IMG/VR virus record: IMGVR_UViG_3300025133_000257
Location: 1 to 40,855 of that record
DNA from: a virus
Strand: one strand, 5' to 3'
DNA: 40,855 nt
The translations under genes and the position numbers were made by a program. A model generated the notes under the pieces. The model did not search any database and was not told the origin of the DNA. It saw nothing but the letters and a program-made list of their open reading frames with translations. Below, in pieces: positions 20,630 to 39,833 of this stretch (positions within the stretch are counted from its first letter, which is position 1; each line of letters begins with the position of its first letter).

Positions 20630-23600
20630 ATGGTAACAATTATTCATGGTAGCAGTCACTTCAAACCAATCGGACAGACAGCAGTCACTGGACCGGTTGG
20701 ATTTACTGGTCCAACTGGGCCTACAGGACCTACCGGCGGATCACCATTAGGACAGACAGGATGGAGTGGGGGCAACATCACCGATATGTACCTTATTGGT
20801 GATAAACTTCATACCATATTTGCAATACACGACCGTGATGGAGTCTTTCGGGGACAAACTGCCGGTTACACCACAACAACAAAAATAAAAGGACAAACGG
20901 GAGATACTTATAACCTAATTGATGTTGGTATTACTTTTGGTGGAATTGGCACAGGTGGTGCAACATTTGCAAAAGGCAGAAATAGTGCAGAAGATTTAAA
21001 TACTATTATAATAAAGAGTATCGAAGTTACTGGTGATAATGATGGTTCTGCAATCTCTCTAACTCAACGACACGATTTAAACACGATTAATATTCATTTT
21101 GACAGAGGTCGATTTGGTTATCTTGATATTGGTCCTGGTAGTAGTCAAAATCAATTAGTAGGAACTGATTCTAACGCATTGAATGTTCATTGGTTCGTTG
21201 GTGTTACTGGTGCAACATATGATATAGGAACTAGTCGTGGATTAGAAGATGGTGCATATGCAATTAATACAAAAGTTGAAGATTATAAAGAAAAGATAAA
21301 ATACCTCACAGTTGGTGCCGCGGGTTCTGGTTCAGATTTAGAAAACTTAAACGAATATCCTGATCATGACCCGATATATGCTCCGCCAACAAATACACCA
21401 ATTGATCCAAATGTGGCAAAAAACTTTGTGTTAGATATGAGGCAACTTGAAAATGTTGATTCTGATGGATATACTGGTGGAGTTCAACTACGTTTTCGTG
21501 ATGCACACTTTGGATATACTGGAAATAAATCTAACTCAAATAACAATTTAGGAAAAGCATTTACACTCGTTACTCATGGTGCAACTGTTGGATATGAATC
21601 ATCTAGATTCGATGGAAGGAATATACTTTGGCCATTAGATTTAGAACCATGTTGGAGTGGGAAAACAGATATTATCAATTTCTTCTGGTTGCCTTGTGAA
21701 GAAAGAGATTTAGGCCACCCAGATGGAAGTCATTGTGTGGGTGGTGCGGCATGGCATGGAAATATTGTGCAGTGGAAATCTCAAGCAACAGATATCATTT
21801 CGGGAACTGATGATGACCCATTCTTCTGCCATTCAGAAACTAGTGATTATACTACGGAATTCAGAAATTATAATTCTGGAATGACTGGAGCAACTGGTGC
21901 GTGTTGTGTGGGTGATGGAATTTGTGTTTATACAACACCAAGTTTGTGTTATGGTCATTATTTTGGTGCAGGAACAACTTGCGGTGCGGGTGGAAGTGGA
22001 AGTATTTGCTATGAACCTGGTGCGTGTTGTGTAACAAATACACAGATAAATAAAACCACTTGTTATGAAGATATTTCTTCTAATTATTGTGTAGAATTGG
22101 GCGATAAATTAAATTATGTTTCTTCGTTTGGTGGAACAGGAAGTGAATGTGTGGATATGCGTTGTGGAAATATTAAAGACAAGAAAGGTGCATGTTGTGA
22201 TGGTTTAGGACAATGTTTTACATTGACGGAAAAAGAATGCAATAAAAGAAAATATTATTTTGCTGGTGTTGGAATTTCTTGTAATTTAAACAGTAAAGGT
22301 GTTGTTAATGTTTGTCAAGGTGGAACGGGTGCATGCATTTTAAGTAATACTATATGTGAGGATGGCTGGTCGGGTGGTGCATGTATAGGTGGTGGTTATC
22401 TTTATGCGGGGAATAATACTAAATGCAACGATGTTAAAGATATAAGAAAATCCTCAAGCACATCTGGATGCATTCCAGAAGTGTCTGGATTAAATTTAAA
22501 ACCTGGTGACCTTTATGCTGGAGGAATGGTGGTCGGACTTTATAGACCACATGGTTCTTCAATAAGAGGCAACAAGTCGTTTGGTGGCAATAAAGAAACA
22601 CCTTGGCAAGAATTGATGAAGGGTTCAACGGGTTCTACTGGTAATCTAGGATATCCTTCAGAGAAATATAAATCTAAATATGATTATCATGGGTATGGTT
22701 TTGATTCTGTCGGATGTCCAGACTATAATAAAATGTCCACATTAGACGAAATTGCAAGACCGGATGCATATTATATCGTAGTATCGATGCACCATTTGGG
22801 AATTACTGGTGACAGAGAAATAGTAAATCCAAGTGTGGTTTATGGTGCAACTAGTGATTTCTTCTGGGGAAACCGTGGAAGTGCATGGGGTCCAATATAT
22901 GACCAAAGAACTGGAAAATACGATGACATAAGCAAAGAGTATAAAGAAAAGATTTTCAGAATATCTGAAGGTTATTGGTATAACCAAGGAATTACCGGCG
23001 CGGCATTAGGTACTCTTGCAACAAATACATTCAGTTCTTGTAGAAAGGCAAGAAGACTTGGTAACGGTGCAATACAAAAAATACAAACGAAATCAATACA
23101 ATCTGCACATGGATTGTGGCACAGAAACTGGGGAATGTATAATAATATTAGAGTAATTAGTGCTGATAATGCACTATACAGAAACTACAACGATAATGAT
23201 GGTACTTATTCTGGTTCTGATTTTGGTCCTGGACTCACTGGTTCTTATGTTTCTGCATTCCGAGCGTCGCGATTATTTAGTGATAATTTAATATCTGCCA
23301 CTGGTGCAACTGGTCCTATTAATAATAGAGTTTCTAGTTGGTATATTCCAAGTCATGATGAAATGGCATTTATTGCATCTAATTGTGTTGGGGAGTATCA
23401 AGGATTTAATTTAAATGCTGAACTACTTCAAGAAGATGGTGTTCCGTTAAATGGGTGGCACTGGACTTCTACTGGTGCGTTCAACGAAGTTAAAGGAACG
23501 ACTTTGGGAGTTGGAGAAGGTATTATTAATCCAGTTGGTGCAACTGGACCAGCAGGAATTACCGCAGACCCAGGAACACTTGCATGGGCAATGAAATTCG

Positions 23601-23791
23601 ATGCAAATGGACATGAAGGCAACTTTAAAGTTGGCAAGAAAAATAGAACTCACAATAAATATAAAGTAAGACCTATTCGTTTAATTCGTTGTGATGGAAA
23701 ATTTGCAGACGGCGAAGATGAATACTATAAACTATGGAAACTCCCGAATGTTCTTCGGGATGAAGACAAAGGAATAAATCAAAGGTACTAG
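20630..23791 (+). CDS. Collagen-like fibre protein with Cys-rich core and lectin-like C-terminus
   Basis: 1053 residues. N-terminus I-I-H-G-S-S followed by collagen-like Gly-X-Y (G-P-V-G-F-T-G-P-T-G-P-T-G, about 21-37). Residues about 423-604 hold five to six units of the Cys repeat (G-A-C-C-x-x-D-G-x-C then C and C-x-x-x-x-C). From about 620 to 1031 the protein resembles DUF1566/C-type-lectin-like modules: opening G-D-L-Y-A-G-G-M-V-V-G, W-Y-I-P-S-H-D-E-M at about 904, H-W-T-S-T-G at about 944 and closing V-R-P-I-R-L-I-R. This fold often binds ligands in phage or bacterial surface proteins. No SD site is obvious: AT-rich leader directly after the previous stop. I infer a trimeric receptor-binding fibre. 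Confidence 0.6.
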   Translation: MVTIIHGSSHFKPIGQTAVTGPVGFTGPTGPTGPTGGSPLGQTGWSGGNITDMYLIGDKLHTIFAIHDRDGVFRGQTAGYTTTTKIKGQTGDTYNLIDVGITFGGIGTGGATFAKGRNSAEDLNTIIIKSIEVTGDNDGSAISLTQRHDLNTINIHFDRGRFGYLDIGPGSSQNQLVGTDSNALNVHWFVGVTGATYDIGTSRGLEDGAYAINTKVEDYKEKIKYLTVGAAGSGSDLENLNEYPDHDPIYAPPTNTPIDPNVAKNFVLDMRQLENVDSDGYTGGVQLRFRDAHFGYTGNKSNSNNNLGKAFTLVTHGATVGYESSRFDGRNILWPLDLEPCWSGKTDIINFFWLPCEERDLGHPDGSHCVGGAAWHGNIVQWKSQATDIISGTDDDPFFCHSETSDYTTEFRNYNSGMTGATGACCVGDGICVYTTPSLCYGHYFGAGTTCGAGGSGSICYEPGACCVTNTQINKTTCYEDISSNYCVELGDKLNYVSSFGGTGSECVDMRCGNIKDKKGACCDGLGQCFTLTEKECNKRKYYFAGVGISCNLNSKGVVNVCQGGTGACILSNTICEDGWSGGACIGGGYLYAGNNTKCNDVKDIRKSSSTSGCIPEVSGLNLKPGDLYAGGMVVGLYRPHGSSIRGNKSFGGNKETPWQELMKGSTGSTGNLGYPSEKYKSKYDYHGYGFDSVGCPDYNKMSTLDEIARPDAYYIVVSMHHLGITGDREIVNPSVVYGATSDFFWGNRGSAWGPIYDQRTGKYDDISKEYKEKIFRISEGYWYNQGITGAALGTLATNTFSSCRKARRLGNGAIQKIQTKSIQSAHGLWHRNWGMYNNIRVISADNALYRNYNDNDGTYSGSDFGPGLTGSYVSAFRASRLFSDNLISATGATGPINNRVSSWYIPSHDEMAFIASNCVGEYQGFNLNAELLQEDGVPLNGWHWTSTGAFNEVKGTTLGVGEGIINPVGATGPAGITADPGTLAWAMKFDANGHEGNFKVGKKNRTHNKYKVRPIRLIRCDGKFADGEDEYYKLWKLPNVLRDEDKGINQRY

Positions 23792-26500
23792 ATGATACAC
23801 GGAAGCAGTAGAATAGAAGATTTAACAGGAATCAGTTCAATAACTGGTCCTACTGGTCCTACTGGTGCTATTGGTCCTGGGGGAACTTACGGAAGAACTG
23901 GTCCACGAGGAACTACTGGATTTACTGGTCATGGTATTACAGGTGCTACGGGAACAAACACTGGTGGTTTATATACACATCAAATTATATTTGACTTGGC
24001 CGGTTTTGAAGGTAGCACTTATGGTTGGAAAACTACTGATGGAACAACACTAGGAGTTACTGGTGTTCGTGGCTCCACTGGTGATAGACCGAGCGACGAT
24101 TTCGTAATTTGGAACACTATAGGGGCAGGAGGTATTACAGAAGATTTTAGCGGCAATTATGGTGAACTGTTTAGTGAAAAATTAGGCCTAACAGCGTATT
24201 TTAGAAATTTAACTATTTCTGGTAGAGATATTGCAGTCCGAGAACCTACCGATTATATGATTATGCTTGGCGGTATAACTTATGGTTTCGGCAGAATGGG
24301 AATAACAGGAGAACTTTTATTCATCAATCCAGAACTTGGTGGATTGTCTGCACAGGGCGCACCTAATACTTTTTGGAGTGGCGACCAATTAACTGCAAGA
24401 ATTTTATCACACAAAGAATCATACAACCAAACCACAACCAATAATAACTTAACACAACCAGTAAATAACCTAGCAGATAACCCAATAAACACATCAGCAG
24501 TTGTAAGTACATCAAACATTGATGGAACTGCTGTTACTTTTAGTAGTATATTTACAGACCAATATAATGGAGAAGGTGGAACAGCAATTGCAAGCGGTAT
24601 TCATATGGGTGGTGGTTCACCAGGTGAAGTTTATAAATTTGCTGGAGTAACATTTGATACTAAATTTTCTTTAGAAGATGTTGTAGTAGGTTCTTGTTGC
24701 TATTGTTCTGATGGTATGGATAGACCAGACCATAGAGATTGTGTTGATTATGTGACTCAAACTTATTGCGATGGAATCGGTGGTAATTTCTCCTTTGATG
24801 TTTGTATGAATAGATCGGAGGGACCAAATTGTTTCTCAGAAGGTTCTTGTTGTGTAAATGGAACGTGTGTTGCAACCAGTGAAGAAAAATGTCAATTGTT
24901 TGGTGGTTTCTTTGTTGAAGATTTGGATTGTGAATTCATTCGTACTGAATTGGGTGGTTGTCCACATCCTTGTGCCGAACGAGGAGCTTGTTGTATAGAT
25001 ACTGAATGCTTTGAATTTACTGAACACGAATGTTCTTTCTTTCCAAACGGCATGTGGTTTGATAAATCTTGTGCGTCTACTAACTGTTGTTTAGAAGCAA
25101 ATTACGGAGCGTGTTGCGTTGATGAAGTGTGTTATCACACCACCGCGGACATGTGCGGTAAATTAAGAACCGATGGTGGGGATGGTCCATCTACTGGCAT
25201 ATTCTGGGGATTGGGTTCAGAGTGTGCAGGCCTGCACTTAGCTAAGGTCGATGGAAATCCCCAAGACACCTATTCTTATGAATCATATTATGCCTTCAAC
25301 TGTCTTGACAGCGATGGTAATGTGACTGGCGAATTGGGTTCAAATGGTAAGTGTTCAGATGGAACGAATCCACCTTGTACTGGGTGTAATGGGTGGACTC
25401 AGTTAATGCCAGAGGCAACTGAGTGTATTGATGGTTATGAAGCATCGTATTGCACATGCGATACTATAGACTGCATATGTGAGCCTCAAGGAGAGTTCCC
25501 ATACCGTTGCGTTGATACCGACTCATGTGGAACACTACGGTTGGCAAATGGTACATGTTGGGAGTGTTGCAAAAATCAACCAGACAACTATGTGGCTTTG
25601 GGTTCATGCTGTATGAAAGATATTGACTTCGGATGGCAGTGTATTACTTCTTCAAGAGAAACTTGTTTTATTGCTGGCGGATACTTTAGTATAGGTTCTT
25701 GTGATGCTGTGAATTGTGAATCGGGTTCGTGTTGCAGAGATTTTAATTGTTCAATGGAAAATGCCGAAGAGTGTGCTGATATCTTTGGAGAGTGGCAAGG
25801 ATATAGTTGCAACGACACTGATTGTTCGGGATCCCGATTTAAAGATTATGATGTACCAGAATCGGTAGCAGAACCAGAGGCCTTAATTGGTATATCACCC
25901 AAAGATAGAAAAGACAAGAGGGTTCGCAGATTAGAAATGGAACAGGGTAATGTGGTTTTTAAACCTAAAGAGGTAAAAGAATCAGTTCCAAAAAATCAAT
26001 GTCCAGAATCGACTAACATTTCTTCCTGCATTGAACCTGATATTGTGGTTGCTCCCTCAAATAAAAATCATTGGACTATAGAAGTAGGAAGTGGTGAATG
26101 TTCTTGTTGTTCCCCTGGGGTTTGTTGGAGCGGTGCGTTAGGAGATGGTGGTATTGCTGAAGATTGTTCTGTATTTGGAGATACCGCTAGTCCAGTAACA
26201 GATTGTTTTAGTGGTAATTGCAAACCCAATTCTTCTACCAAGTCTTATGAAATACCATCTTTGCCCACAGATGTTAAACCAATATGTACAAATTCACAAT
26301 GGGAAACTAATGAACTTGGATGCACTCCATATGTGGATGTTTCTAAACCCGAAAAACCAGTTTGGATGGTATGTTCTTGTTGTTGTAAAAACGGAAGATG
26401 TTTACAATTTGAAGAACCTATTCCTTGTTCAGAATGTGAAGCGTTAGGAATAGATAACGACTGTAAATGTATTAATGGGTGTGATAAGTGTTTTAATTAA
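23792..26500 (+). CDS. Collagen-like and Cys-repeat surface protein
   Basis: 902 residues. It opens with M-I-H-G-S-S like the preceding gene and a collagen-like stretch at about 15-50 (G-P-T-G-P-T-G-A-I-G-P-G-G). From about 300 to the end it is dominated by Cys-rich units (G-S-C-C, G-A-C-C, with C and C-x-x-x-x-C spacing), about ten of them including irregular copies such as C-C-K-N-Q near residue 590. A charged non-Cys linker occurs at about 680-745. It starts at the base after the previous stop and has an AAGG site. A structural role as a fibre or decoration spike is inferred. No enzymatic or lectin motif is visible. Confidence 0.55.
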   Translation: MIHGSSRIEDLTGISSITGPTGPTGAIGPGGTYGRTGPRGTTGFTGHGITGATGTNTGGLYTHQIIFDLAGFEGSTYGWKTTDGTTLGVTGVRGSTGDRPSDDFVIWNTIGAGGITEDFSGNYGELFSEKLGLTAYFRNLTISGRDIAVREPTDYMIMLGGITYGFGRMGITGELLFINPELGGLSAQGAPNTFWSGDQLTARILSHKESYNQTTTNNNLTQPVNNLADNPINTSAVVSTSNIDGTAVTFSSIFTDQYNGEGGTAIASGIHMGGGSPGEVYKFAGVTFDTKFSLEDVVVGSCCYCSDGMDRPDHRDCVDYVTQTYCDGIGGNFSFDVCMNRSEGPNCFSEGSCCVNGTCVATSEEKCQLFGGFFVEDLDCEFIRTELGGCPHPCAERGACCIDTECFEFTEHECSFFPNGMWFDKSCASTNCCLEANYGACCVDEVCYHTTADMCGKLRTDGGDGPSTGIFWGLGSECAGLHLAKVDGNPQDTYSYESYYAFNCLDSDGNVTGELGSNGKCSDGTNPPCTGCNGWTQLMPEATECIDGYEASYCTCDTIDCICEPQGEFPYRCVDTDSCGTLRLANGTCWECCKNQPDNYVALGSCCMKDIDFGWQCITSSRETCFIAGGYFSIGSCDAVNCESGSCCRDFNCSMENAEECADIFGEWQGYSCNDTDCSGSRFKDYDVPESVAEPEALIGISPKDRKDKRVRRLEMEQGNVVFKPKEVKESVPKNQCPESTNISSCIEPDIVVAPSNKNHWTIEVGSGECSCCSPGVCWSGALGDGGIAEDCSVFGDTASPVTDCFSGNCKPNSSTKSYEIPSLPTDVKPICTNSQWETNELGCTPYVDVSKPEKPVWMVCSCCCKNGRCLQFEEPIPCSECEALGIDNDCKCINGCDKCFN

Positions 26501-26540: not shown

Positions 26541-29500
26541 ATGCCAGTAATCGGAAGCAGTCTAATAACACCACCACAATTCGTTGAGGGGCCTAGAGGA
26601 AATACAGGCCTTGCTGGAATTACGGGACTCGCAGGCGCTTCTGGTGTACCAGGTGCTTCTGGTCCAACAGGTGCAACAGGAATTTTTGTTCTTTCTGGTT
26701 ATCCTTCACCCTCTACTAGAGATTTAATACTCGTTTTATCAGATGGTAGAGAATTTACAATTAAAGATATTGCTGGTCCAACAGGTGCGAGTGGGACAGC
26801 GTATGGCCTCAACACCGGCACAGGTGGCGGTAAGACTTATGATATATTCAAAGAAGTAACAGATGGTGTGACTTTCTGGTTCAAAGGATTATCTGCTGAA
26901 GGAACACTTGATGTATATGAAACAAGTGATATAGTAGGAATCAGTGGTGATGTACAATACCAAAGAGGTGCAACTGCTCCGTCTGTTCAGGGTGGTAGAT
27001 ATGCTTATCTAGAAAGAATGATTGGTGGAGCAACTGCTTTTGCAGGGTTTACATATGCGGGTGCAACAGGTTCTGAATTAACTTCAAGTGAAACTGGGTC
27101 AATACCATTTGGCAAGGCCGCAGCTGGGAATTTATATTCATACGACCCAGAAGAAATTGTGATTCCAATTGGTCCTATGGATATAAGTGGAACTTATGGA
27201 CTCACTGGTAGTGATTATTCTGAAAATCCGTGGGGTACTCCTCTAGCAGACGGTGTTGGTATTCAACTTCCTGTAACAAGAGGAAGTGTATATGATGTAG
27301 AAACTCCTATCGGGATTCGTGGATTTACTGGTGAATTTTCTTCTGATGAGGTTTTTAGTTTTACTATGCATCTTAAAGGAAATGACCTTTGGGACTGGCC
27401 GGAAAATATTTATTTTGATAAGAATGATTTGTATTTCTCTTGTGGTTATGACATCATTAACTTTTTAACTTCTGATGGGGGTGTATCTTGGAAAGCAAAT
27501 GTTGCAGTTCGTGGATATGGAACTAGTGAATGTCAAAGTGTTCATGGTGTAGGTTCTTGTTGTTATACAGATGATGAAAATGAATTGAATTGTCGTGATT
27601 ATATGACAGAATCTGAATGTCACGAATTGGATAGTCCTTTTCCTGATGGGGAACATGGATATTGGGGGCCATTTTCTACTTGTGCAGAAAATTGTGGAAT
27701 GACGGCACAGGGTGTTTGTTGTAGTGAAGGTGGTGAATGGGGCAACTTTGGTGGCACTACCCGAATTTGTCTTGAAAATGTTGGAGCAACAGAATGTGAT
27801 TATTTTGGTGGTACTTTCTGGACACATTATTATTATACAAAAGATGACTGGGGGAGAGCAGTTCCTTTAGACCCTCCAGTTGTAATTGAATGTGTTGGGG
27901 ATAGGATAAAAGGAGGGGGTGGTTCTCGGAGTAGAGAAGAGAATTGTACAACTCCACCAATTGGGGATGAAGGCTGTTGCTGTTGGGCCGTGGGCGATGA
28001 CGATTGTAATACAGTGGACACAGTTCAAGGCACAACGTGCAAATGCGATTATCAAGAAGCTTCCTGTATATCTGGTGGTGGCAAGTTTTATGTTGGGGAA
28101 ACTTGTGGGGATGTGTCATCGAATGATGGATGGGGTATTTGTTGTTATGGTTGCGAGACCACTGACGATGACCATCTAGGCAATACTTGGTATGACGATG
28201 TTGAGTGCAGTGATTGTAAGAAACCATACTGTGCTGTCGATTGGAATTTTGATACTTGTGATGACGGTGAAGGAGGTTGCGATGATGTCTGTAAGCTTCT
28301 TGATGGTACTTGTTTATATGAAACGTGTCTATATGGAGAAGTCGGAAGTCCATATCCTCCACCGATGGATGCATCCATCGGTCCGGGTGATTCGGCATGG
28401 ATAATACCAGATGAGTGCAAGGATGCATCAACATGCGAAGCGAGTGTGGTTAATGGTTATAGTGGAAAATACAGTCCATTAGTAGAAGATTTTGGTGGTT
28501 GGTACAAGGCAGATATATGTTCATGCCCCCTTGACGAACAAGTTTCTGGTTCTGGCAATGGTTGGTGTCAACAACCATTGCCATGTTGTCGATATTTCTG
28601 GGATGATGTAGAACCGACAGAATGCCTTGGAGTAATGTGGCAGTGGGAGTGTGAACAGAAAATAATAGAGGGTGATGCCGATCATATGCCTCTCGGTACA
28701 GATTGTAACTCATGTTTTGGCACTGATATACATGGTGCATGTTGCGTTGGCCCAAATTGTATGTCGCCTGTGTCCAGTGATTATTGTTATAATGAAGGCG
28801 GCATTTATCAAGGAGATGAGACAGACTGCGGTTCAACACTTTGTGGTGGTGGTGGTGGTGATATGGGTTCTTGTTGTATTCCTTTTGAGCCCGGTGGTGA
28901 TGGTGGTGATGGTGGTGATAGTGATAGTAGTGATAGTAGTGATAGTGATAGTGGTGATAGTGATAGTAGTGATAGTGATAGTAGTGATAGTAGTGATAGT
29001 GATAGTGATAGTGGTGGTGGTGAGACGCATGACGAGTGCCCTGATGATGGTACAGAAGTGGAAATGTTTTGTTGTGCTTGGAGTTTGTCCGATTGCGATT
29101 GTGAAAACATGCCGACCAACTTCTGTTGCAAGCCGATATGGTGTCCTTTTGATGCGGAGGATTGTTGGGACTCCGAAGCTGGCGAGCAGGGCACACTTCA
29201 TGGTTCGATGGCAGATTGCGAAGAAGCTTGTTGTCAAGATCCATTTGGCCACAAAAGCAGGAAAAGGGATTTCGGCGATGGATATGAATGTGTTTTAAAT
29301 ATGAGTCTAGGAGATTGTACCGCTGCTGGTGGAGTGTGGAATGAATTCGGAGAATGTGCTGGTGAGTGTGATAATGTGGGTGATGAGTGTACAAATCATG
29401 GTGGTGAACTTTGTATAAATCCGTGTTGTGACCCAATTGCATGTTGCAAAGATGGAAGTTGTATAGGTGATACCTATGGCAATTATGATGACATGCATCC

Positions 29501-30105: not shown

Positions 30106-33100
30106 ATGCCTGCACCAACAGAAACCTTTATATTTAAATGCAAATGCACCGAAGGCATCTGTCAGAAATGTCTTTCGTCTCATTGGGCGGAAGAGGGTGA
30201 TGCATATATTCCAGCAGGTTGTCTTTTCGCGTTATGCCCTCCACCTGAACTTTGCCAAGGAGATATAGGTCGTCTACCAGTCGATTATCAAAATCTACAA
30301 AATTGTGATGATATGTCTGGCAGCTTTTGTGAGGGGGAGCAAGAGGTAACAGTAGAACACACCTTCGGTGGAGAGTGCCCGGGGATGTTTTGTCAATCTG
30401 GCGCATGCCAGTGTGGCAACGGCACTGCGTGTGATAGTTCCGCGGATGATTGGGAAGCTGAAATTATTACTGAAGGTGCAGACATCTGCGGCGGCCCGGA
30501 TTACGACCCGCCGTGTGAAGATGGTGACCTAACTGGTGCTTGCTGTGCTGGTGCAGTATGTCACGCGTGGGTAACCGAAGATTATTGTGATACGTTTGAA
30601 CCACATGAATTCTTTGAGGGTTTGGCGTGTGGTGATATCGAATGTGACGGTGGTGGTGACGGTGGTGATGGTGGTGATGGTGGTGATAGTGGTGATAGTA
30701 GTGATAGTGGTGATAGTGGTGATAGTGGTGATAGTGGTGATAGTGATAGTGGTGATAGTGATAGTGGTGATAGTGATGTTGTCGGCGCATGTTGTTTGAG
30801 TGATGGAAGTTGCCTTGAAAATTTGAATGGTGGTGAGTGTGATGCTTTCGGTGGCACATACAAAGGTGATAGCACAACTTGCGCTGATGTGGATTGTACA
30901 CCACCAGGCCCAATCGTTGCATGTTGGGATGAAACCAAACTTAGAGCAGACGATGGGGCGGTTGGTGACCGCTTCGGCAGCAGCGTCGCAGTTGATGGCA
31001 ACACAGTTGTTGTTGGGGCATACCTTAACGACAATGACAACGGCTCCGAATCTGGTAGCGCGTATGTGTACCGCTTTAATGGAACTGGTTGGGATGAAAC
31101 CAAACTTACAGCACTCGATGGGGCAGGTAATGACTACTTCGGCACAAGCGTCGCAGTAAGCGGCGACACAGTTGTTGTTGGGGCGCCCAGTGACGATGAC
31201 AACGGCACCTGGTCTGGTAGCGCGTACATCTACGAACGCGTCGGTGGAATCTGGGAAGAAAAAACCAAACTTAGAGCAGACGATGGGGCGGTTGGTGACC
31301 GCTTCGGCAGCAGCGTCGCAGTTGATGGCAACAGAGTTGTTGTTGGGGCATACCGTGACGATGACAACGGCACCTCTTCTGGTAGCGCGTATGTGTACCG
31401 CTTTGATGGAGCTGATTGGAATTTTGAAACCAAACTACTTGCAGAAGATGGGGCAAGTTATGACGAATTCGGCTTAAGCGTCGCAGTTGATGGCAACACA
31501 GTTGTTGTTGGGGCACACGGTGCCGATAACTATTCTGGTAGCGCGTACATATACCGATTTGATGAGATTGCTTGGAATGAAACCAAACTCACTGCAAGCG
31601 ATAGGGCAAATAGTGACTACTTCGGCAACAGCGTCGCAGTAGATGGCGATACAGTTGTTGTTGGGGCACTCTGGGACGATAACGAATACGGCCCCAATGC
31701 TGGTAGCGCGTATGTGTACCAATTTGATGGAGCTGATTATTGGTATGAAACAAAACTCCTTGCAAGCGATGGGGCAAGTAATGACTACTTCGGCAGCAGC
31801 GTCGCAGTAGATGGCGACAGAGTTGTTGTTGGGGCATACGGTGACGATGACATCGGCATGAGTTCTGGTAGCGCGTATGTGTACCAATTTGATGGAAGCA
31901 GTTGGATTGAAACCCAACTCCTTGCAAGTGATGGGGCAGGTGAAGACCGCTTCGGCAACAGCGTCGCAGTAGATGGCGACAGAGTTGTTGTTGGGGCATA
32001 CCGTGACGATGACTACACTGGTAGCGCGTATGTTTATATTCCATGTGTTACTGGTGCTTGCTGTTTTGCAGATTTAAGTTGCCTTGAATATTTTGATGTT
32101 GATTGTGTTGCTTTCGGTGGCACATACAAAGGTGATGGCACAACTTGCGCTACTGCGAATTGTGGAACATCAGACGCAACAGGTGCATGTTGTTTTGAGG
32201 ATTTAAGTTGCCTTGAAAATTTGAATGGTGTTGATTGTAATACTTTCGGTGGCACATACAAAGGTGATGGCACAACTTGCGCTGATGTGGATTGTACACC
32301 AATCGGCGCATGTTGTTTTGCCTCATCGGCTGAAGATAGAGACTGTACAAGTTGTATCCAAACAACTGAAGCGGACTGTCCGTCCACAGAGTGGCACGGT
32401 AATGAAGAATGTGATGATTCATCGTGGCCATGCAGCCCGCAGAGTGGTTCGTGCTGTGTTGCAAATGAATGCACAGACGATGTTCTTCAAGTAGACTGCA
32501 ACGGCTTCTGGAATTGTGACGACTGTGATAACCGATATGGGGCGTGTTGCATGCCTTCTGCAGGGGGTGGGTGCCTGCATGTAAAGAAGACGACATGCGA
32601 TGCGTTGCTAGGAATATGGAATTGTGACGACTGTGATTCGTCTGATTGCGTCTGGGGTGCTTGTTGTGAATGGAACGTACCATCGTTATCGTGGCAGTGT
32701 TCTAATGACGTTCTAGAAGATAAATGTACAGGTCATTGGAAAGGTGAGAATTCAACATGCTCTTCAGACCCTTGTGGCGGCGCGTGTTGCAATAACGATG
32801 ATGGTACTTGCATGGATGACGACACGGTGCCTGATGCAGCGACTTGCAAAGCAATGGATAATCATTCTTGGCAAGGACCTGGTACTAGATGTATTGATGT
32901 TGGGCATCTTTGCAATTGTGACGATTGTCGCGCGTGTTGTAAAAATGGAATATGTAATGTTGAAGAATCATATGAAGTCTGTACAACCGCTGGTGGTGTT
33001 TGGTTTAATAACGAAACGGACTGTAGCACACTTGGTTTGTGTGATATTCGTGCGTGTTGTGTTGGAGACAGTTGTACACTTTTAACATCAAGTGAGTGTG

Positions 33101-35184
33101 GTGAAATCTATGGAACATGGCATAGTGATAAAACTAGTTGCAATCCTAATCCATGTGTAACCATAAATGGTATTTGTTGTGATCCGAACCAAAATGATAC
33201 TGGAAATGGTCACTGTGGCGACCCAGATGGAACTCTTACTGAACATGATTGTGTCGGTGACGAAATCTTTATTGCAAATGGCCATTGTGCCGATAATGAT
33301 TGTAGTGATGATACTGGTCGTTGTTGTTGGTGTCCAGATCCCACGGGGGATGATTGTATTTCACCTGTGTCTAATTGGCAATGTGTGAATGTACACGGCA
33401 GATGCGGGGATTCTTCTTGTATTAATTGGTCACCGGGCAATAGTCTTTGTGGTGGCTCTATGCAAGATTGTCAGAATTTAATAGATACCGGCGCATGCGG
33501 CGCAGTTGGTGCATGTTGTAGAGATTTTACTTGCACACAAGAAACAGACTATAGTTGTACTAATAACGGTAGTGGTACATGGCAAGGAAAGAATATTCAT
33601 TGCGAGGTGGATACTTGTGGCAGTGAAGACCCAGAGGGCGCGTGTTGTATAGATGAAATTTGTTCAACAACAACATCGAAGAATTGCTTGGCAGGGGAGG
33701 GAACTTATCTTGGTGATGACACGACATGCGATGGTGACCCATGTGTAATTGTAGACCCAGAGGGTGCATGTTGTTACATAAAAGGCGGTACAGAAACTTG
33801 TCAACAAAAAACAGAGGCCGATTGTGAATTATTGGTCGATTATGTGTATTATGGTGACGGTTCTACTTGTGCAGTTGAAGGTGCTGATTGTGGCACTGGT
33901 ACTGGTGCTTGTTGTTTTGTTGACACTGGATGTCATGAAAATTATAATGAGACAATTTGCAACGGTGAGGGTGGCGACTACAGAGGTGATGGTTCGGTTT
34001 GCTTTGATCAACTTGATTGCGTGGGGTCAGAAGGTGTTTGTTGTATAGGGACGGTTTGCCATGAGACATATACATCTCATTTAGCTTGTAATAGTGACGG
34101 TGGTGTTTGGACTGGGGGTGTAGCAACTTGTATTGGGTTTAATTGTGGCCCTGGTACTGGTGCTTGTTGTCGTGGTTTATGTCTTGGTGAGGACTATACA
34201 TCAGTAGATTGCGAGGCCGTGGGTGGCACATACCAAGGTGATGACACAATTTGCGCTACTGTGATTTGTCCAGTCCTTCAAACGGGTGCATGTTGCGTTG
34301 ATTTAAATTGTCTTCCGGGTGTCTATACATCAGCAGATTGCGAGGCCGTGGAAGGCACATACCAAGGTGATGGCACAACCTGCGCTACTGTGGATTGTGA
34401 AACACCAGTAACCGGCGCATGTTGCGAGAATGACGAATGCACGGGTGTCTATACATCAGCAGATTGCGAGGCCGCGGGTGGTACATACAAAGGTGATGGC
34501 ACAACCTGCGCTACTGTGGATTGTGAAACACCAGACCCAACTGGCGCATGTTGCGAGAATGACGAATGCACGGGTGTCTATACATCAGCAGATTGCGAGG
34601 CCGCGGGTGGTACATACAAAGGTGATGGTACGCTATGCAGTTCTAGCATTTGTGGATGTATAACCTGTCCCGGTGGTGATGGTGGTGATAGTAGTGATAG
34701 TAGTGATAGTAGTGATAGTAGTGATAGTAGTGATAGTAGTGATAGTAATGATAGTAGTGATAGTGGTGATAGTAGTGATACTGGTGATACTGGTGATAGT
34801 AATGATAGTGGTGATAGTAGTGATAGTACCGAACTTGGAGGCTGGTGTTGTAGTGGTGGAGAAGATAATTGTTCCCCTTGCCCAGAAGATGGGGGTATAA
34901 TTCCTGATTTTTGTTGCTATAAAGAATTGCCACCCATCGGCCCTGTTACTGACTGGTGTACACCTGAGTTTGCAACTGAAGCGGAGTGTTATGAATTTTG
35001 TTGTAACATGGGTGACATCATCCCAATTGACCCCCCAGGTATCCCCGTGCAAGTTCCCAACGTACCGACCACGATGGACAGATATACAAATGTCCAACTT
35101 GATAACGGAGAGTGTGTTTGGGTGGAATGTATGGCTCCATTTTGCCCATATCCGTTGTGTACGGAGATAAATCCACATGGCTAA
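30106..35184 (+). CDS. Giant Cys-repeat adhesin-like protein with seven-bladed FG-GAP propeller
   Basis: 1692 residues, the largest protein in the window. It has about 22 Cys-repeat units of the form G-A-C-C-x5-C-x(8-12)-C-x3-G-G-T-Y-x-G-D-G-T-T-C-x4-C, two before residue 275 and the rest after 645. Residues 276-644 are seven FG-GAP blades of about 52 residues (each T-K-L-x-A-x-D-G-A, F-G-x-S-V-A-V-x-G, V-V-V-G-A, S-G-S-A-Y-V-Y), the count expected for one closed integrin-type propeller. Ser-Asp linkers sit at about 181-224 and 1523-1574. The C-terminus carries N-G-E-C-V-W and C-P-Y-P-L-C, shared with the protease gene. It overlaps the next gene by 8 bases. There is no signal peptide or anchor, so display on the virion is inferred from the neighbourhood. 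Confidence 0.65.
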   Translation: MPAPTETFIFKCKCTEGICQKCLSSHWAEEGDAYIPAGCLFALCPPPELCQGDIGRLPVDYQNLQNCDDMSGSFCEGEQEVTVEHTFGGECPGMFCQSGACQCGNGTACDSSADDWEAEIITEGADICGGPDYDPPCEDGDLTGACCAGAVCHAWVTEDYCDTFEPHEFFEGLACGDIECDGGGDGGDGGDGGDSGDSSDSGDSGDSGDSGDSDSGDSDSGDSDVVGACCLSDGSCLENLNGGECDAFGGTYKGDSTTCADVDCTPPGPIVACWDETKLRADDGAVGDRFGSSVAVDGNTVVVGAYLNDNDNGSESGSAYVYRFNGTGWDETKLTALDGAGNDYFGTSVAVSGDTVVVGAPSDDDNGTWSGSAYIYERVGGIWEEKTKLRADDGAVGDRFGSSVAVDGNRVVVGAYRDDDNGTSSGSAYVYRFDGADWNFETKLLAEDGASYDEFGLSVAVDGNTVVVGAHGADNYSGSAYIYRFDEIAWNETKLTASDRANSDYFGNSVAVDGDTVVVGALWDDNEYGPNAGSAYVYQFDGADYWYETKLLASDGASNDYFGSSVAVDGDRVVVGAYGDDDIGMSSGSAYVYQFDGSSWIETQLLASDGAGEDRFGNSVAVDGDRVVVGAYRDDDYTGSAYVYIPCVTGACCFADLSCLEYFDVDCVAFGGTYKGDGTTCATANCGTSDATGACCFEDLSCLENLNGVDCNTFGGTYKGDGTTCADVDCTPIGACCFASSAEDRDCTSCIQTTEADCPSTEWHGNEECDDSSWPCSPQSGSCCVANECTDDVLQVDCNGFWNCDDCDNRYGACCMPSAGGGCLHVKKTTCDALLGIWNCDDCDSSDCVWGACCEWNVPSLSWQCSNDVLEDKCTGHWKGENSTCSSDPCGGACCNNDDGTCMDDDTVPDAATCKAMDNHSWQGPGTRCIDVGHLCNCDDCRACCKNGICNVEESYEVCTTAGGVWFNNETDCSTLGLCDIRACCVGDSCTLLTSSECGEIYGTWHSDKTSCNPNPCVTINGICCDPNQNDTGNGHCGDPDGTLTEHDCVGDEIFIANGHCADNDCSDDTGRCCWCPDPTGDDCISPVSNWQCVNVHGRCGDSSCINWSPGNSLCGGSMQDCQNLIDTGACGAVGACCRDFTCTQETDYSCTNNGSGTWQGKNIHCEVDTCGSEDPEGACCIDEICSTTTSKNCLAGEGTYLGDDTTCDGDPCVIVDPEGACCYIKGGTETCQQKTEADCELLVDYVYYGDGSTCAVEGADCGTGTGACCFVDTGCHENYNETICNGEGGDYRGDGSVCFDQLDCVGSEGVCCIGTVCHETYTSHLACNSDGGVWTGGVATCIGFNCGPGTGACCRGLCLGEDYTSVDCEAVGGTYQGDDTICATVICPVLQTGACCVDLNCLPGVYTSADCEAVEGTYQGDGTTCATVDCETPVTGACCENDECTGVYTSADCEAAGGTYKGDGTTCATVDCETPDPTGACCENDECTGVYTSADCEAAGGTYKGDGTLCSSSICGCITCPGGDGGDSSDSSDSSDSSDSSDSSDSNDSSDSGDSSDTGDTGDSNDSGDSSDSTELGGWCCSGGEDNCSPCPEDGGIIPDFCCYKELPPIGPVTDWCTPEFATEAECYEFCCNMGDIIPIDPPGIPVQVPNVPTTMDRYTNVQLDNGECVWVECMAPFCPYPLCTEINPHG
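30646..30777 (+). repeat. Ser-Asp/Gly-Asp hexanucleotide tract 2
   Basis: GGTGAT/AGTGAT units in frame, encoding Gly-Asp then Ser-Asp. It separates the first Cys unit from the second one in the giant protein, just ahead of the propeller. Confidence 0.9.
30808..32301 (+). repeat. Near-identical Cys-repeat units flanking the propeller
   Basis: The 96 bases at 30808-30903, directly before the propeller, closely match 32206-32301, two units after it. Both encode a SCLENLNG start, then C, FGGTYKGD, T-T-C-A-D-V-D-C. The match suggests that the propeller DNA was placed into an older Cys-repeat array or that the array was copied across it. Confidence 0.75.
30931..32037 (+). repeat. Seven FG-GAP repeat blades (coding)
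   Basis: Seven consecutive units, each about 140-165 bases. Blades 1 and 3 are identical over 72 bases (30932-31003 and 31262-31333). Bases here are richer in G and C than in the surrounding Cys array, for example in runs such as GACGATGGGGCGGTTGGTGAC, which supports a separate origin or recent duplication. Confidence 0.85.
34414..34628 (+). repeat. 86-bp exact direct repeat in the last Cys units
   Basis: The 86 bases at 34414-34499 recur exactly at 34543-34628, a period of 129 bases or 43 codons. They encode G-A-C-C-E-N-D-E-C-T-G-V-Y-T-S-A-D-C and onward to K-G-D-G. An earlier unit (about 34285) is more diverged. Confidence 0.9.
34672..34828 (+). repeat. Ser-Asp hexanucleotide tract 3
   Basis: Long run of AGTGAT units with some GGTGAT, AATGAT and ACTGGTGAT variants, encoding Ser-Asp with occasional Gly, Asn and Thr. 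It lies between the last Cys unit and the conserved C-terminal module. Confidence 0.9.
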
Positions 35185-36118
35185 TCCTCCAACCCACTCA
35201 GATGAAAAATCAACAAAAGAAGTTCTTGATGAACTTTCTATTAACACTTGTTGCGATGATGCTTGTATAGATTGTATAATTGATGGTGCGTGTCATACTG
35301 AATCTGGTTGTCCAGACGATTGTGGTGGTCCACACGGAAATCCTGTTTTCACCAGATGTGATGGTGATGATTGCGAACCACCATGTCCAAGAGAATGTTG
35401 GTCTTGTGGTCCACTTCAAATTAAAGAAGGTTATTGGGAGGATGCACAGTGGCATTGTGGATTTAATTCTTCTAGTCCATGTTGTGAATTGCAAAATTAT
35501 GATTGGGAACAAACATTCTGCAACGGTGGAGTTTCTTGCGAAGAACAAAAACGATTAAGTAAACTTGCAATGATGTGTTATTGGAGAAAATACACAAGAA
35601 ACGGGTCTTGTCAGTGTGAAGGGAATTGTCCATGCGAAGACGGACCTAACACAGACTGTCCAAATACTTGCTATTCCTGTGAAGATTTAATAAGAATGCA
35701 TAATGGTGGTAGTGAATGGTGTCATGCAGGTCCTGGTGGAACTGGAACGATGGATAGGCATATAAGAAGAACTTGTGGATTTTTGTGTAGTGAAAGTTCA
35801 GAATGTGCGGCCTGTATGGATTGTGAGTGTGATGACGGACCAATTATTCAGGTTGAAAAGAAAACTGCTAGGAGTATGGACCCACCGCGGGGTGGAGCGT
35901 GTTGTATCGATGGCATATGTAATGATGGATATACTAAAGTTTTCTGCCGAAATAGTGGTGGGGTGTATTATGGTGATGAAACATTATGTGAGGATTATCC
36001 ACAATGTGAAAACGATTATACCGACTGCGCTTCTGATATACAATGTCCTATTGGTTTGTGTTGTGAAAATGGACTATGTGTACCATGTGCGCGCGTTGGT
36101 GGAAGGGCATGGAGATAA
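35177..36118 (+). CDS. Cys-rich virion protein
   Basis: 313 residues starting inside the end of the giant gene (8-base overlap, ATGGCTAA), so the two are probably translated together; a GGAG site lies upstream. Cys is spread throughout in CC, CxxC and CxC clusters. Residues about 234-275 hold one standard repeat unit (G-G-A-C-C-I-D-G-I-C then C-R-N-S-G-G-V-Y-Y-G-D-E-T-L-C). Immediately after it is a WAP-like unit (D-I-Q-C-P-I-G-L-C-C-E-N-G-L-C-V-P-C), the same type as in the protein at 7593. This links the two repeat classes in one chain. No catalytic motif is visible. Confidence 0.55.
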   Translation: MANPPTHSDEKSTKEVLDELSINTCCDDACIDCIIDGACHTESGCPDDCGGPHGNPVFTRCDGDDCEPPCPRECWSCGPLQIKEGYWEDAQWHCGFNSSSPCCELQNYDWEQTFCNGGVSCEEQKRLSKLAMMCYWRKYTRNGSCQCEGNCPCEDGPNTDCPNTCYSCEDLIRMHNGGSEWCHAGPGGTGTMDRHIRRTCGFLCSESSECAACMDCECDDGPIIQVEKKTARSMDPPRGGACCIDGICNDGYTKVFCRNSGGVYYGDETLCEDYPQCENDYTDCASDIQCPIGLCCENGLCVPCARVGGRAWR

Positions 36119-36121: not shown

Positions 36122-38116
36122 ATGCTATTTAATTATCAGAATAATCCTGAATCCCCACCAGAATGCGATAGGTGGTATGACCCAGATAGACATGACCTTT
36201 TTCTCTATGAAGATGTAAATGCGTCCCTGGACGTTATAGGTATTAATCCTAATTTTTATAATCCAGAATCTGCAAATGGATTTGATTATGATATGCCATC
36301 TTTCTCTTGTGTGGCTGCATCAAGGAGGAAAACGAATCAAATTCCGAATGGATCGCCGCCCGCTTCGTACACATGTGCATCTGGCGAACCTAGTCCGCCC
36401 CGATATATAGCAATCACCCCAAATCATGTGCTGGCAATTGCACATTATTGGGCTGTAGATGCCACCATTGGTCTCACACGTAAATTTTATGGAACTGTTG
36501 GTGGAAAGGGCCAGAATTATCAAAAAATTAAATGGACCAAATTGTATAAGTTGGGGAAGTTCAACGGATGGGATGAGTCTATGTTTGATCTTCCCGGAGA
36601 ATTGGCTATATTAGAATTTAAGGCTGCCGGGCAGAATATCGAAAATCCAGAAGACGGGGATTACAATACTTCGTTAGGTGACCCTATCTACGCGCCAGAT
36701 GTAGAAATAAAATATCCATATTATCTGCCTGAGATATTATCTCAGTATGATCCATTGGTGGAAAAAATTGAAAGCTTTCCTGGAATTGTATTTGGCCAAG
36801 ACATAAGAGGTCATATAGTGAGCCTCGTAGTTAGTGCATCATCGGCCGATGGTTTCAATACACCGAAAGAAAATTTGTGGATTGATTATCGGGGGCCCAG
36901 TTCAACCGAACCTCATGGTGACATTGATACCGCGGACCTGACGCAACCTCATCAGGGATTTATAGATGACCAACTTGCAAGAAAAGAAGATATGGGCGCA
37001 GTGTCCGCTTGGCAAGGGGATTCTGGTAGTTTATATTTTACACTCATACCCGATATGGGCACATACACGAATAATTCTCCTATTTTTGTGGCCCAGATGT
37101 ATGCACCTAATTTTACAAATGTATTACAAGACTATATCATACCGGGTGTCATAGAACCATATGATAATGAACACGGTACAGATTACGCAGATGCTGTGTG
37201 GGGGAGAATACTAACAAGGCAGTCAATGGGCATAGATGAAGTTGGTGCTTGTTGTGAAAATGTCGGTGCTGGTACAGAGTGCCATCATCGTTCACAATCC
37301 GATTGCTCGGCCGTTGGTGGTACATATATGGGTGATAACACAATATGCGGCACAAGTGATCCGAGTGATTCACACTCATGGCCGTGTGTTGGTGATGAAC
37401 CCGAAGGTGCATGTTGTGTTGGTCTTGGAGGTGTTGACAGTTGTGAATCTGTAAGCCCTGTAACGCAATGGGAGTGTGAATCACTCGGATCATATCAGGG
37501 AAATTTTACCGATTGTGAATTGTGTGCCCTGGCTGAGGGTGCTTGTTGTATGCCCGATGGTATATCGTGTGAATGGTTAGATGAAGTTGCTTGTACTTCT
37601 AAGAACGGTATATTGTTTGCTGACGAGGACTGCGCGGATGTTGATTGTAGTGAAAGTGCCACTGGTGCTTGTTGCATTGTTTGGCCATGGGAGACATGTG
37701 TTGATTGGCAGACACCCCAGCAATGCTGGGATGCAGTGGGAACATATAAAGGAGATGCCGTATCGTGCTATGATGGAATATGTGATGTAATAGGCGCATG
37801 TTGTGTTACAAATGGTGGCTGTCTTGACATTTCACAATTGGAATGCGGAAGTCTAGGAACATATAAAGGTGATGGCACAACTTGTATGACTGAGGTGTGT
37901 TATGATGACTGTGTATATTGTGCGGGTCGAGGAAGTTCCCCAAGAAATCAAATAAAATCACATCCAAACAAAATTGAAACCGATTATAAAAAAAATCATA
38001 TAGATGAAATAAAAGGCATTAATAATTACAGCAAGGTTCGACTGCCTAATGGAGAGTGTCAATGGATGGATTGTAATATGATGAACGGTTGTCCATATCC
38101 ACCATGCGGGGAATGA
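36122..38116 (+). CDS. Trypsin-like serine protease-fold protein fused to Cys repeats
   Basis: 664 residues. The N-terminal 330 residues match the chymotrypsin-fold plan: A-I-T-P-N-H-V-L-A-I-A-H-Y (His108 as the catalytic base), E-L-A-I-L-E at 160-165 in the place of the usual D-x-A-L-L, and W-Q-G-D-S-G-S at 297-303 with Ser301 as nucleophile. The acid is Glu160 at the expected Asp site or another nearby Asp, so activity is uncertain. From about 375 come five Cys units (G-A-C-C-type). The C-terminus has V-R-L-P-N-G-E-C-Q-W with C-P-Y-P-P-C, like the giant protein. It follows the previous stop by 3 bases with a GGAG site. A protease carried on the virion that processes host surface or virion proteins is a reasonable inference, unproven. 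Confidence 0.6.
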   Translation: MLFNYQNNPESPPECDRWYDPDRHDLFLYEDVNASLDVIGINPNFYNPESANGFDYDMPSFSCVAASRRKTNQIPNGSPPASYTCASGEPSPPRYIAITPNHVLAIAHYWAVDATIGLTRKFYGTVGGKGQNYQKIKWTKLYKLGKFNGWDESMFDLPGELAILEFKAAGQNIENPEDGDYNTSLGDPIYAPDVEIKYPYYLPEILSQYDPLVEKIESFPGIVFGQDIRGHIVSLVVSASSADGFNTPKENLWIDYRGPSSTEPHGDIDTADLTQPHQGFIDDQLARKEDMGAVSAWQGDSGSLYFTLIPDMGTYTNNSPIFVAQMYAPNFTNVLQDYIIPGVIEPYDNEHGTDYADAVWGRILTRQSMGIDEVGACCENVGAGTECHHRSQSDCSAVGGTYMGDNTICGTSDPSDSHSWPCVGDEPEGACCVGLGGVDSCESVSPVTQWECESLGSYQGNFTDCELCALAEGACCMPDGISCEWLDEVACTSKNGILFADEDCADVDCSESATGACCIVWPWETCVDWQTPQQCWDAVGTYKGDAVSCYDGICDVIGACCVTNGGCLDISQLECGSLGTYKGDGTTCMTEVCYDDCVYCAGRGSSPRNQIKSHPNKIETDYKKNHIDEIKGINNYSKVRLPNGECQWMDCNMMNGCPYPPCGE

Positions 38117-38126: not shown

Positions 38127-39833
38127 ATGAGTATTCAATTCAGAGCAAGAATTAAATCGGCAGGAGATTACACCAGCCTTCTTTCGGATACTGGGGTCTG
38201 TTGCTATCCAGATGGAAGTCAATCCGAAGTAGAAATTGCATACATTACATGTATGAATGCTGGAGGTTATTTCCAATATGTACAGGTTCTACAGGGAGAA
38301 ATACCAAGTGAAGTTGTTTGTCCCGATTTGAGCGATACGGGATGTTGTTGTGCGTGTGAATATGTTGATGATTATGATGCATATTTACAAAGTGTTGAGG
38401 ATGGTAGTCTTATACCACAATATACTAGTGGATTGAAAGATGTTTCTCTTTGTGAGTGTAATCGTATTGGTGGAGTTTGGAGTATTGATTCTTGTGACAC
38501 TTATAATGAGTGGGAAGATATTTTTAATCTATGTACTGGTGGAGCATATTCACACGGCACACCAGATCCAGTTGAACATGACAGAAGATTTCCAGAAGGT
38601 TGTTGTGTAAGTCATCAAGATGGTAGTGACGTAGATGGTGGTCCATATAAAGAATGTGTGCATGTTTGCTCTTCGGGTGAATGCTCTGATTTGCAAGAGG
38701 CCGCATGGCCGAGAGAGCAGTGTTGTCCAAATGTACCAAACGAATCTTTATGCATTGATTGCCCTGAGTGTTGTGCAAGTCATTATGCCACCGTTGCTTG
38801 TGGGAATGACCCAACAATACCCGAACAAGACCAGATTATGTGTGGTGAGGAAACCGCGGCAGCATATGCCGCCGGAGGGACTGCTTTTCTTGATGATGAA
38901 TTTGATAACATTTTAGTCATTCCTAAACAGTCCAGAGAAAAAAATATCGAGGAAAGATATAAGAATACTATAGCAGGAAAAGGAATAAAGGGTGTATCTT
39001 CTGTTTGTATTACAACAAAAGACAGAGTTAATTATGATTGTAAAATAAAAACCGAAAATTTATGTAGTGGAATTTGGATGGGATTAAATGATGCAGGATT
39101 TCCTTTTAAGTGCAATGATTCTGAAGTCACTACAATAAAAGATTTTCTTAAAAATGGAACAGTATCAAGAGAAGTTGTCGATGGGTGGAAAATTGGTCAA
39201 TATCAAATTGCAGGATACTATGCAGGCGTTTTCAATTATGGGGGGGAAGATGGCCATCATGAGAGTCTTGAAGGTCTTGGCAATCCAAAAACTGGGCGGT
39301 GGATTGACTATAAACTTGAGGGTGTATCAAACGATGTCAAAGAATTTAAATCTTTCACTAAGTCACAATATGCGGTTCTTATTTTGCCTAAGGATTTGGA
39401 GGATATGGGTGGCAGCACGGTGAAGCCTATTAAACTTCACTCAAACAATCGAAATATAATAAACCAATCGGTATCAAAATTTGACAGCGTTCGCAATATG
39501 CTCACACCTTTGGATAGGTTTAATGATGTTAATTCCTACATATACAACGGTATAGGTGGATGGGCAATACCTTCACACTACGCACTTGCGTGGATAGCCA
39601 AGCAGATTCAAAAACCCGAATTTATTGAAAATACAAAAAATAATAAAGCATATAAATGGGAGGATATGATAAGATCATATTGGAGTTCTACTTTGCTGGG
39701 AGTAAATAACCACCAACTTATTATGGCATACATTCAAGACTTTGACACAAAATTCGTTAGTGTGTGTCCTATTACTCGTAGGCGCCACTGGACTAGACCG
39801 GTACGTTTTGTAAAAATAAGCCCGGAGGTTTGA
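38127..39833 (+). CDS. Cys-rich protein with lectin-like (DUF1566-type) C-terminus
   Basis: 568 residues. The first 250 residues are Cys-rich with irregular CC clusters and one unit-like start (G-V-C-C-Y-P-D-G at about 23-30). The second half is Cys-poor and shows the lectin-like ending also found in the 20630 protein: G-Q-Y-Q-I-A-G-Y-Y-A-G-V-F (about 356-368), W-A-I-P-S-H at about 478, Y-W-S-S-T-L-L-G at about 518 and T-R-P-V-R-F-V-K-I at the end. A short Ala-rich stretch (A-A-A-Y-A-A-G-G) occurs near residue 248. I infer a second receptor-binding or ligand-binding spike. The start has a GGGAA-type weak site. Confidence 0.55.
   Translation: MSIQFRARIKSAGDYTSLLSDTGVCCYPDGSQSEVEIAYITCMNAGGYFQYVQVLQGEIPSEVVCPDLSDTGCCCACEYVDDYDAYLQSVEDGSLIPQYTSGLKDVSLCECNRIGGVWSIDSCDTYNEWEDIFNLCTGGAYSHGTPDPVEHDRRFPEGCCVSHQDGSDVDGGPYKECVHVCSSGECSDLQEAAWPREQCCPNVPNESLCIDCPECCASHYATVACGNDPTIPEQDQIMCGEETAAAYAAGGTAFLDDEFDNILVIPKQSREKNIEERYKNTIAGKGIKGVSSVCITTKDRVNYDCKIKTENLCSGIWMGLNDAGFPFKCNDSEVTTIKDFLKNGTVSREVVDGWKIGQYQIAGYYAGVFNYGGEDGHHESLEGLGNPKTGRWIDYKLEGVSNDVKEFKSFTKSQYAVLILPKDLEDMGGSTVKPIKLHSNNRNIINQSVSKFDSVRNMLTPLDRFNDVNSYIYNGIGGWAIPSHYALAWIAKQIQKPEFIENTKNNKAYKWEDMIRSYWSSTLLGVNNHQLIMAYIQDFDTKFVSVCPITRRRHWTRPVRFVKISPEV

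Follow-up and report, generated by a model that had tools for sequence, protein, structure and literature searches.

What are the Cys-rich repeats that fill a late gene region of a phage genome, and where and how would such proteins act? This question is raised by the window, the whole stretch of DNA analysed here (40,855 bases), which is a complete IMG/VR record and evidently a piece of a larger phage genome. Between positions 20630 and 39833, seven open reading frames (ORFs, designated by their start positions) of 313-1692 aa each contain 3-14% Cys, with 492 Cys among 6341 pooled residues (7.8%). A preliminary description of this region proposed that a single repeat family, either disulfide-locked or metal-loaded, dominates the tail surface of a T4-like phage. 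The features considered are collected in Table 1.

Table 1. Coordinates and main characteristics of the features of the window.
Feature	Position	Strand	Remarks
gp53-like baseplate wedge gene	2867..3916	+	PF11246, E=2.4e-09
498-aa Cys-rich protein, hub/gp25 region	6094..7590	+	one weak unit at 7426-7530
549-aa protein, 96 Cys (17.5%)	7593..9242	+	Cys repeat distinct from the GxCC unit; tandem at 8715-8957, period 78 bp
276-aa Cys-bearing hub-region protein	9271..10101	+	
gp25-like baseplate wedge gene	10208..10666	+	PF04965, E=2.3e-10
gp6-like baseplate wedge gene	10670..12445	+	
1053-aa fibre-like protein	20630..23791	+	short collagen-like (GxT/P) N-terminus, conserved C-terminal domain
GxCC units of ORF 20630 (3-4)	about 21896-22435	+	
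902-aa Cys-rich (8.2%) protein, collagen-like N-terminus	23792..26500	+	GxCC motifs under profile threshold in the window
1149-aa protein	26541..29990	+	N-terminus collagen-like (sub-threshold for Pfam Collagen); aa 1-453 conserved
Remainder of ORF 26541		+	Ser-Asp repeat linker, then variable Cys-rich C-terminus
GxCC units of ORF 26541 (4-6)	28734-28844, 29613-29729, 29742-29867, 29877-29978	+	
1692-aa array protein	30106..35184	+	174 Cys (10.3%), 14-18 GxCC units
Other parts of ORF 30106		+	seven mid-protein FG-GAP_2 repeats (E=2.2e-127), Ser-Asp linkers, C-terminal CPYPxC cap motif
Four near-regular units in succession inside ORF 30106	34159..34653	+	129-bp tandem duplication
313-aa protein, 14.1% Cys	35177..36118	+	one unit at 35894-35998
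664-aa protein	36122..38116	+	five units (37244-37900), C-terminal CPYPPC cap
568-aa conserved protein, 5.3% Cys	38127..39833	+	closes the cluster
Small marker protein, six invariant Cys, CGGCGC motif	39888..40427	+	adjoins the gp13 homologue position

The GxCC repeat family is real. Its unit follows the consensus GxCC-x4-6-C-x7-9-C-x13-C-x4-C, with six Cys, and occurs in tandem. A first, relaxed profile, built on units picked by a regular expression, counts 18 units in ORF 30106, 6 in ORF 26541, 5 in ORF 36122, 4 in ORF 20630 and 1 in ORF 35177; the strict profile, iterated from 548 units, counts 14, 4, 5, 3 and 1, respectively, and also picks one unit in ORF 6094 (7426-7530). Twenty shuffles of all window proteins gave zero profile matches and zero regular-expression matches, so that the family, its consensus and its coordinates were borne out as originally described. 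The same is true of its spread over several neighbouring giant ORFs, namely the five just listed, to which ORF 6094 is added from outside the region then considered. The "about 22" copies claimed for one protein come close to the 21 x[ASVIGT]CC motifs of ORF 30106 (19 for G[ASVI]CC), but exceed its 14-18 profile units. Six G[ASVI]CC motifs are found in ORF 23792, with zero units over the threshold in the window; its orthologs carry one unit (contig L073) and three units (G007). ORF 38127 has a single motif and zero profile-supported units. As the arrays are common to independent contigs, chance and assembly artefact were rejected as their source.

The six-Cys mini-domain has no significant match in Pfam, NCBIfam, PHROG or PDB. 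Around it, the Cys-rich proteins are heterogeneous. ORF 7593, the most Cys-rich of all, is built on another repeat (CxxDxDCPxxxCCxxGxC, with a weak match to DUF7107). The N-terminal part of ORF 36122 shows trypsin-like motifs by eye and no match in PDB, and a search for relatives of this ORF in viral contigs found none. The marker protein has no match in Pfam.

That the phage is T4-like, as initially proposed, is supported by the gp53, gp25 and gp6 baseplate wedge genes, present in order on the window, and by a 123-kb relative, G010, in which the orthologous cluster is followed by the marker gene, a gp13-like adaptor, a gp14-like head closure and a gp15-like sheath stabiliser. Beyond gp15 come terminase, sheath and portal genes, and the same lineage also has replication genes (on G010, not on the window). 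In G010, tRNA-Cys is the only tRNA found; it was set aside as a sign of Cys demand, since the other tRNA-bearing relatives showed none. In T4, gp10, gp11, gp12 and wac directly precede gp13. Since the cluster ends at gp13-gp14-gp15, it occupies the gp10-gp12-wac position of T4, and so would replace the baseplate pins, short tail fibres and whiskers. Another group of Cys-rich ORFs (6094-10101) is located in the hub region. There, a single 1636-aa protein of a distant relative (G005) matches ORF 3929 at one end and ORF 9271 at the other, which gives ORFs 6094 and 7593 the look of a module inserted at the tail tip. The gene order thereby suggests a tail-surface location for the arrays.

Comparisons with known phage proteins give resemblances outside the GxCC arrays. 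The Gly-x-y N-termini of ORFs 23792 and 26541 weakly match collagen-like phage tail fibres (PHROG 5073, 8745 and 30509), while the rest of both proteins has no PHROG match. The FG-GAP domains of the cyanophages S-TIM5 and S-MbCM6 and of Vibrio phage nt-1 share 36-41% identity with segments of ORF 30106 (within aa 275-619); for the searched GxCC array, the phage collection gave no match. Among 50,697 deposited phages, neither the searched GxCC arrays nor ORF 20630, aa 1-458 of ORF 26541 and the marker gave a match, with the caveat for both sets that the BLAST low-complexity filter may mask weak cases. Homology of the Cys-rich parts (GxCC array, ORF 20630, aa 1-458 of ORF 26541) to known phage proteins was likewise not found.

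Array-bearing T4-like phages are a widespread and common uncultured group. The marker gene has 257 related loci in IMG/VR. Among the best 80, 75 have an ORF of 3.5% Cys or more close by, an upper figure because truncated or near-duplicate contigs are among these loci and the marker alone may exceed the 3.5% level; GxCC units are present in 35 of these 80, which is the stricter count. The window and six relatives share most of their gene order, and units occur in all seven. Five further contigs (L128-L132, GC about 63% where measured) hold 2-3 units in a tail gene region, a tally that leaves out the unit-bearing ORF of L132, and have no match to the other genes of the phage group. The unit alignment subset A2 found no further viral contigs; the viral contig scan with a bacterial-style subset (A7) succeeded.

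The pairing of the six Cys can be approached through their losses across 579 distinct units (146 from phages and 433 from bacteria). C2 is absent in 10 units, and C6 is missing from its usual place in all 10 (p=2.3e-10); C1 is absent in three, all of which also lack C4 (p=1.1e-6), these p-values being inflated by kinship among units. No other pair is comparable. The C2/C6 losses are spread over about five contig groups and the C1/C4 losses over at least two. There are exceptions: two units lose C4 but not C1, and 57 keep C2 without C6 at the usual distance, some of them having a Cys further on. A looser tail window of 16 residues lowers the C2-C6 co-loss to 6 of 10 (p=4e-6), as unrelated Cys lying downstream then enter the count. 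Loss in pairs argues for C1-C4 and C2-C6 disulfides, and against a metal cluster; by elimination only, it implies that C3-C5 would be the third.

Structure prediction, one of the checks proposed at the outset, gave a confident fold. The last three of the four units at 34159..34653, modelled by AlphaFold2 with an alignment of 101 sequences, reach a pLDDT of 93.7, with strands and a helix in each unit; full-length ORF 20630, with an alignment of eight rows, reaches 33. The three-unit model has no significant match in PDB or among viral structure models, and the unit sequence matches no PDB chain. The top-ranked, non-significant structural match (Foldseek E=2.0) is ADAM17 in the zymogen-iRhom complex (PDB 9xy4), on which about one unit superposes (41 columns, 1.9 A) with no sequence match. 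This predicted resemblance is only a lead; a Phycisphaerae protein fuses an M12B protease to four units. ORF 20630 has eight orthologs, itself included (35-79% identity), in which 28 of 31 Cys are invariant, compared with 15.6% of the other residues. Because of the pairwise losses, the confident fold and this invariance, the unit is supported as a probable disulfide-locked mini-domain and not a metal site. Of the two options in the preliminary description, the disulfide one is therefore favoured, and the metal one is weakened by the pairwise losses and by the scarcity of His.

The preliminary description also likened the repeats to those of secreted proteins of marine Planctomycetes, and this likeness held. 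In one scan of 84,980 species of bacteria and archaea, the unit turned up at 59 loci, of which 51 bear Planctomycetota names; this tally is a lower bound and possibly biased, as the query was one short window-derived pattern. The remaining loci belong to Eisenbacteria, Zixibacteria, one Staskawiczbacteria, one alphaproteobacterial bin and one unnamed organism. Outside phages, the repeat thus appears almost only in secreted proteins of Planctomycetota (mostly Phycisphaerae), with the same unit, the same six Cys, the tandem layout and no Pfam name. The bacterial arrays reach 34 units per protein. These proteins differ from those of the phages by mostly having signal-peptide-like starts (by eye, in those printed), by the M12B protease, LamG or LTD domains that some carry, and by the lack of phage anchors; some have dockerin-like ends (by eye). 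The phage array proteins, for their part, have no signal-peptide-like start (by eye) and begin as collagen-like or soluble. Within Planctomycetota, the unit is patchy: of 199 genomes sampled, 5 have it when a strict cut-off is applied.

Divergence is uneven along these proteins. In close relatives, gp6 is 78-81% identical, ORF 20630 78% and ORF 38127 71%, while ORF 7593 aligns only partially (49-56% identity) and ORF 26541 keeps 82% identity as far as residue 453, past which it cannot be aligned. The array ends, therefore, diverge much faster than the anchors. They appear to grow by tandem duplication, as the 129-bp one of ORF 30106 (34194-34628) illustrates. Receptor-binding proteins typically combine a stable anchor with a volatile tip, and the arrays seem to resemble such receptor-binding parts in tempo. 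When scored against a size-matched set of bacterial units, 17 of the 28 window units, notably those of ORF 30106, score higher than against sibling-phage units. The units of ORF 20630 are nearest to their own phage orthologs, and in the other phages of the group, G005 excepted, most units are nearest to phage units. This fits anchors that hold old, fixed units and arrays that would show newer exchange or convergence.

A disulfide-rich phage virion is not without precedent. The virion of Agrobacterium phage Milano, which has a contractile tail, is heavily disulfide-bonded, with crosslinks joining neck, collar, capsid, sheath and baseplate subunits (PMC10491603, PMC10811340). DTT-treated virions have lower mechanical and heat stability (PMC10491603), and the baseplate is disulfide-linked (PMC10811340). 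Cys make up 1.4% of Milano proteins overall and 2.1% of structural proteins, compared with 7.8% over the seven cluster ORFs here and up to 17.5%; the crosslinks are largely between subunits and a tandem six-Cys repeat is not described in the passages considered, whereas the array Cys here would sit in closed six-Cys units. The claim that no described phage is alike is thus upheld for the arrays among deposited phages, and qualified by Milano as far as dependence on many disulfides is concerned. The arrays are not explained by known families; repeat-domain fibres and disulfide-rich virions are already known kinds.

The reading that we favour, with a probability of roughly 0.6, is that of disulfide-bead arms on the baseplate, tip and neck of a T4-like phage, oxidised after lysis, adhesive, and built from a module exchanged with Planctomycetota; within it, we infer the location in the virion, the time of oxidation, the adhesive role and the direction of exchange. 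Each unit would be a mini-domain of about 38 residues with three disulfides (C1-C4, C2-C6 and C3-C5), and tandem strings of units would be borne by anchors, either collagen-like or beta-structured, that attach to the baseplate, the tail tip and the neck region of the T4-like phage. The array proteins would fold and assemble inside the host, and their Cys would oxidise post-lysis, resulting in stiff, protease-resistant and fast-diversifying arms. These would bind surface polymers or host exoproteins; FG-GAP propellers would be part of them too, perhaps along with domains of a lectin-like or protease-like type. Planctomycetota use the same module in their secreted proteins, and phages and bacteria would have swapped it. 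An own disulfide machinery, one of the routes first envisaged, was not found: neither thioredoxin nor glutaredoxin exceeds the Pfam cut-off in eight incomplete contigs, the only sub-threshold match being on G010, where a glutamine synthetase-like protein bears a fused thioredoxin-like head. Oxidation probably follows lysis.

The same Cys could instead hold Zn, Cu or Fe, either structurally or for scavenging or delivering metal in a reducing cytoplasm. The very high Cys content (up to 17.5%), the CC pairs, the many acidic residues and assembly in a presumably reducing cytoplasm would suit such arrays. Nevertheless, Cys vanish in defined pairs and not as a whole set, ORF 30106 has 20 His for 174 Cys, and the bacterial relatives look exported, hence in an oxidising setting, all of which makes metal binding a very unlikely reading. 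Disulfides that mainly harden or crosslink the tail, as in Milano, would explain the arrays without adhesion, and the stability lost by that phage under DTT, together with its disulfide-linked baseplate, lends this idea some weight (PMC10491603, PMC10811340). It is improbable all the same: Milano has far lower Cys and many inter-subunit crosslinks, whereas the array Cys lie in closed, fast-turnover six-Cys units, next to gp6-like and gp25-like proteins with 2 and 0 Cys.

It has also to be considered whether the array proteins belong to the virion at all, since FG-GAP and GxCC domains are also found in exported bacterial proteins, and secreted or lysis-released late proteins might merely sit in a tail operon. 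Their lack of a signal-peptide-like start (by eye), their collagen-like N-termini, which weakly match families of phage tail fibres, and the position of their genes between gp6-type wedge genes and gp13 make this quite improbable. Mimicry, in which the arrays would copy Planctomycetota exoproteins and let the tail dock into, or be tolerated by, the protein coat of the host, draws on the 17 of 28 window units that are closer to bacterial than to sibling-phage units, and on a repeat otherwise almost confined to Planctomycetota. We regard it as unlikely, but not negligibly so: in the other phages of the group, leaving G005 aside, the nearest relatives of most units are phage units, the G010 terminase is nearest to those of marine cyanophages (60% aa), and one 20-kb stretch of G010 gave no credible CRISPR spacer match against 392 Planctomycetota genomes. 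Two other candidate host links were rejected, namely a planctomycete contig with a brief, imperfect DNA match that is not inside a CRISPR array, and a T4-like contig in a Planctomycetota bin, whose terminase resembles that of these phages no more (55%) than the cyanophage ones do (60%) and which has no Cys-rich ORFs. It is the shared repeat that may link the phages to Planctomycetota hosts. A broader form of the disulfide-arm reading, in which a marine T4-like clade infects Planctomycetota and its gp10-gp12-wac region and tail tip are now hypervariable arrays exchanged with these bacteria and serving as a recognition repertoire, is tentative and on balance doubtful.

Overall, the likely disulfide pattern of a six-Cys mini-domain could be read from evolution alone, and a common uncultured phage group devotes much coding capacity to such units. 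To our knowledge, few T4-like phages of Planctomycetota are known. The gene content points to tails that would be studded with disulfide-locked adhesive arms. If confirmed, these would add to the phage fibres a class made of disulfide beads, would raise the question of how such proteins get oxidised in a lytic cycle, and could aid in finding the phages of Planctomycetota.

Further domains are suspected in the Cys-rich cluster proteins of the tail region. Read by eye, the N-terminus of ORF 36122 (36122-37240) resembles a trypsin-fold protease in having a GDSGS motif as well as the residues AHYW; its comparison with the PDB gave no match. Similarly, WxIPS..WxS motifs were seen by eye in the C-terminal regions of ORF 20630 (22600-23791) and ORF 38127 (39200-39833), which look like the DUF1566/Lcl adhesin type, and neither region gave a profile match. 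When the six-Cys GxCC unit was used as a Foldseek query, ADAM17 was the top-ranked match, at a non-significant E=2.0.

The GxCC unit also occurs, in 2-3 copies, in the tail gene region of a separate, GC-rich phage lineage. The hub-region protein encoded by ORF 7593-9242 (17.5% Cys) carries WAP/DUF7107-like tandem repeats that differ from this unit. In L009, a contig almost identical to the window, this tandem repeat is interrupted by a stop codon and a small deletion (L009:1935-3572), either a natural variant or an assembly error.

Features of the phage group, the second lineage and the Planctomycetota locus
Feature	Location	Strand	Details
Marker protein	39888-40427		Small, conserved; adjoins gp13; six invariant Cys, CGGCGC motif
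GxCC units	L128:5913-8990		Second lineage, tail gene region
GxCC units	L130:7872-8609		Second lineage, tail gene region
M12B (reprolysin/ADAM-type) protease, then four GxCC units	L014:2315-4771		Phycisphaerae protein
Thioredoxin/glutaredoxin-like N-terminus (CGWC) fused to glutamine synthetase-like domain	L100:12758-14251	minus	Single phage protein (relative G010)
tRNA-Cys(gca)	L104:13549-13622	minus	Relative G010
tmRNA gene	L215:495-887		Related phage contig; tag ANNNNYMAIAA
tmRNA gene	L242:2647-3010		Related phage contig; tag ANTRAFAMAA

The whole phage group is marked by the small protein adjoining gp13, which had no match in a Pfam search and is a candidate metal protein or assembly factor. 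The 123-kb relative G010 carries a large cluster of sugar-nucleotide, sulfotransferase and glycosyltransferase genes at 1-31 kb (L099 and L100). Its tRNA-Cys is the sole tRNA detected across this relative, and tRNA-Cys was absent among the tRNAs read in the others. The tmRNA genes of the two related contigs constitute a possible clue to the host.
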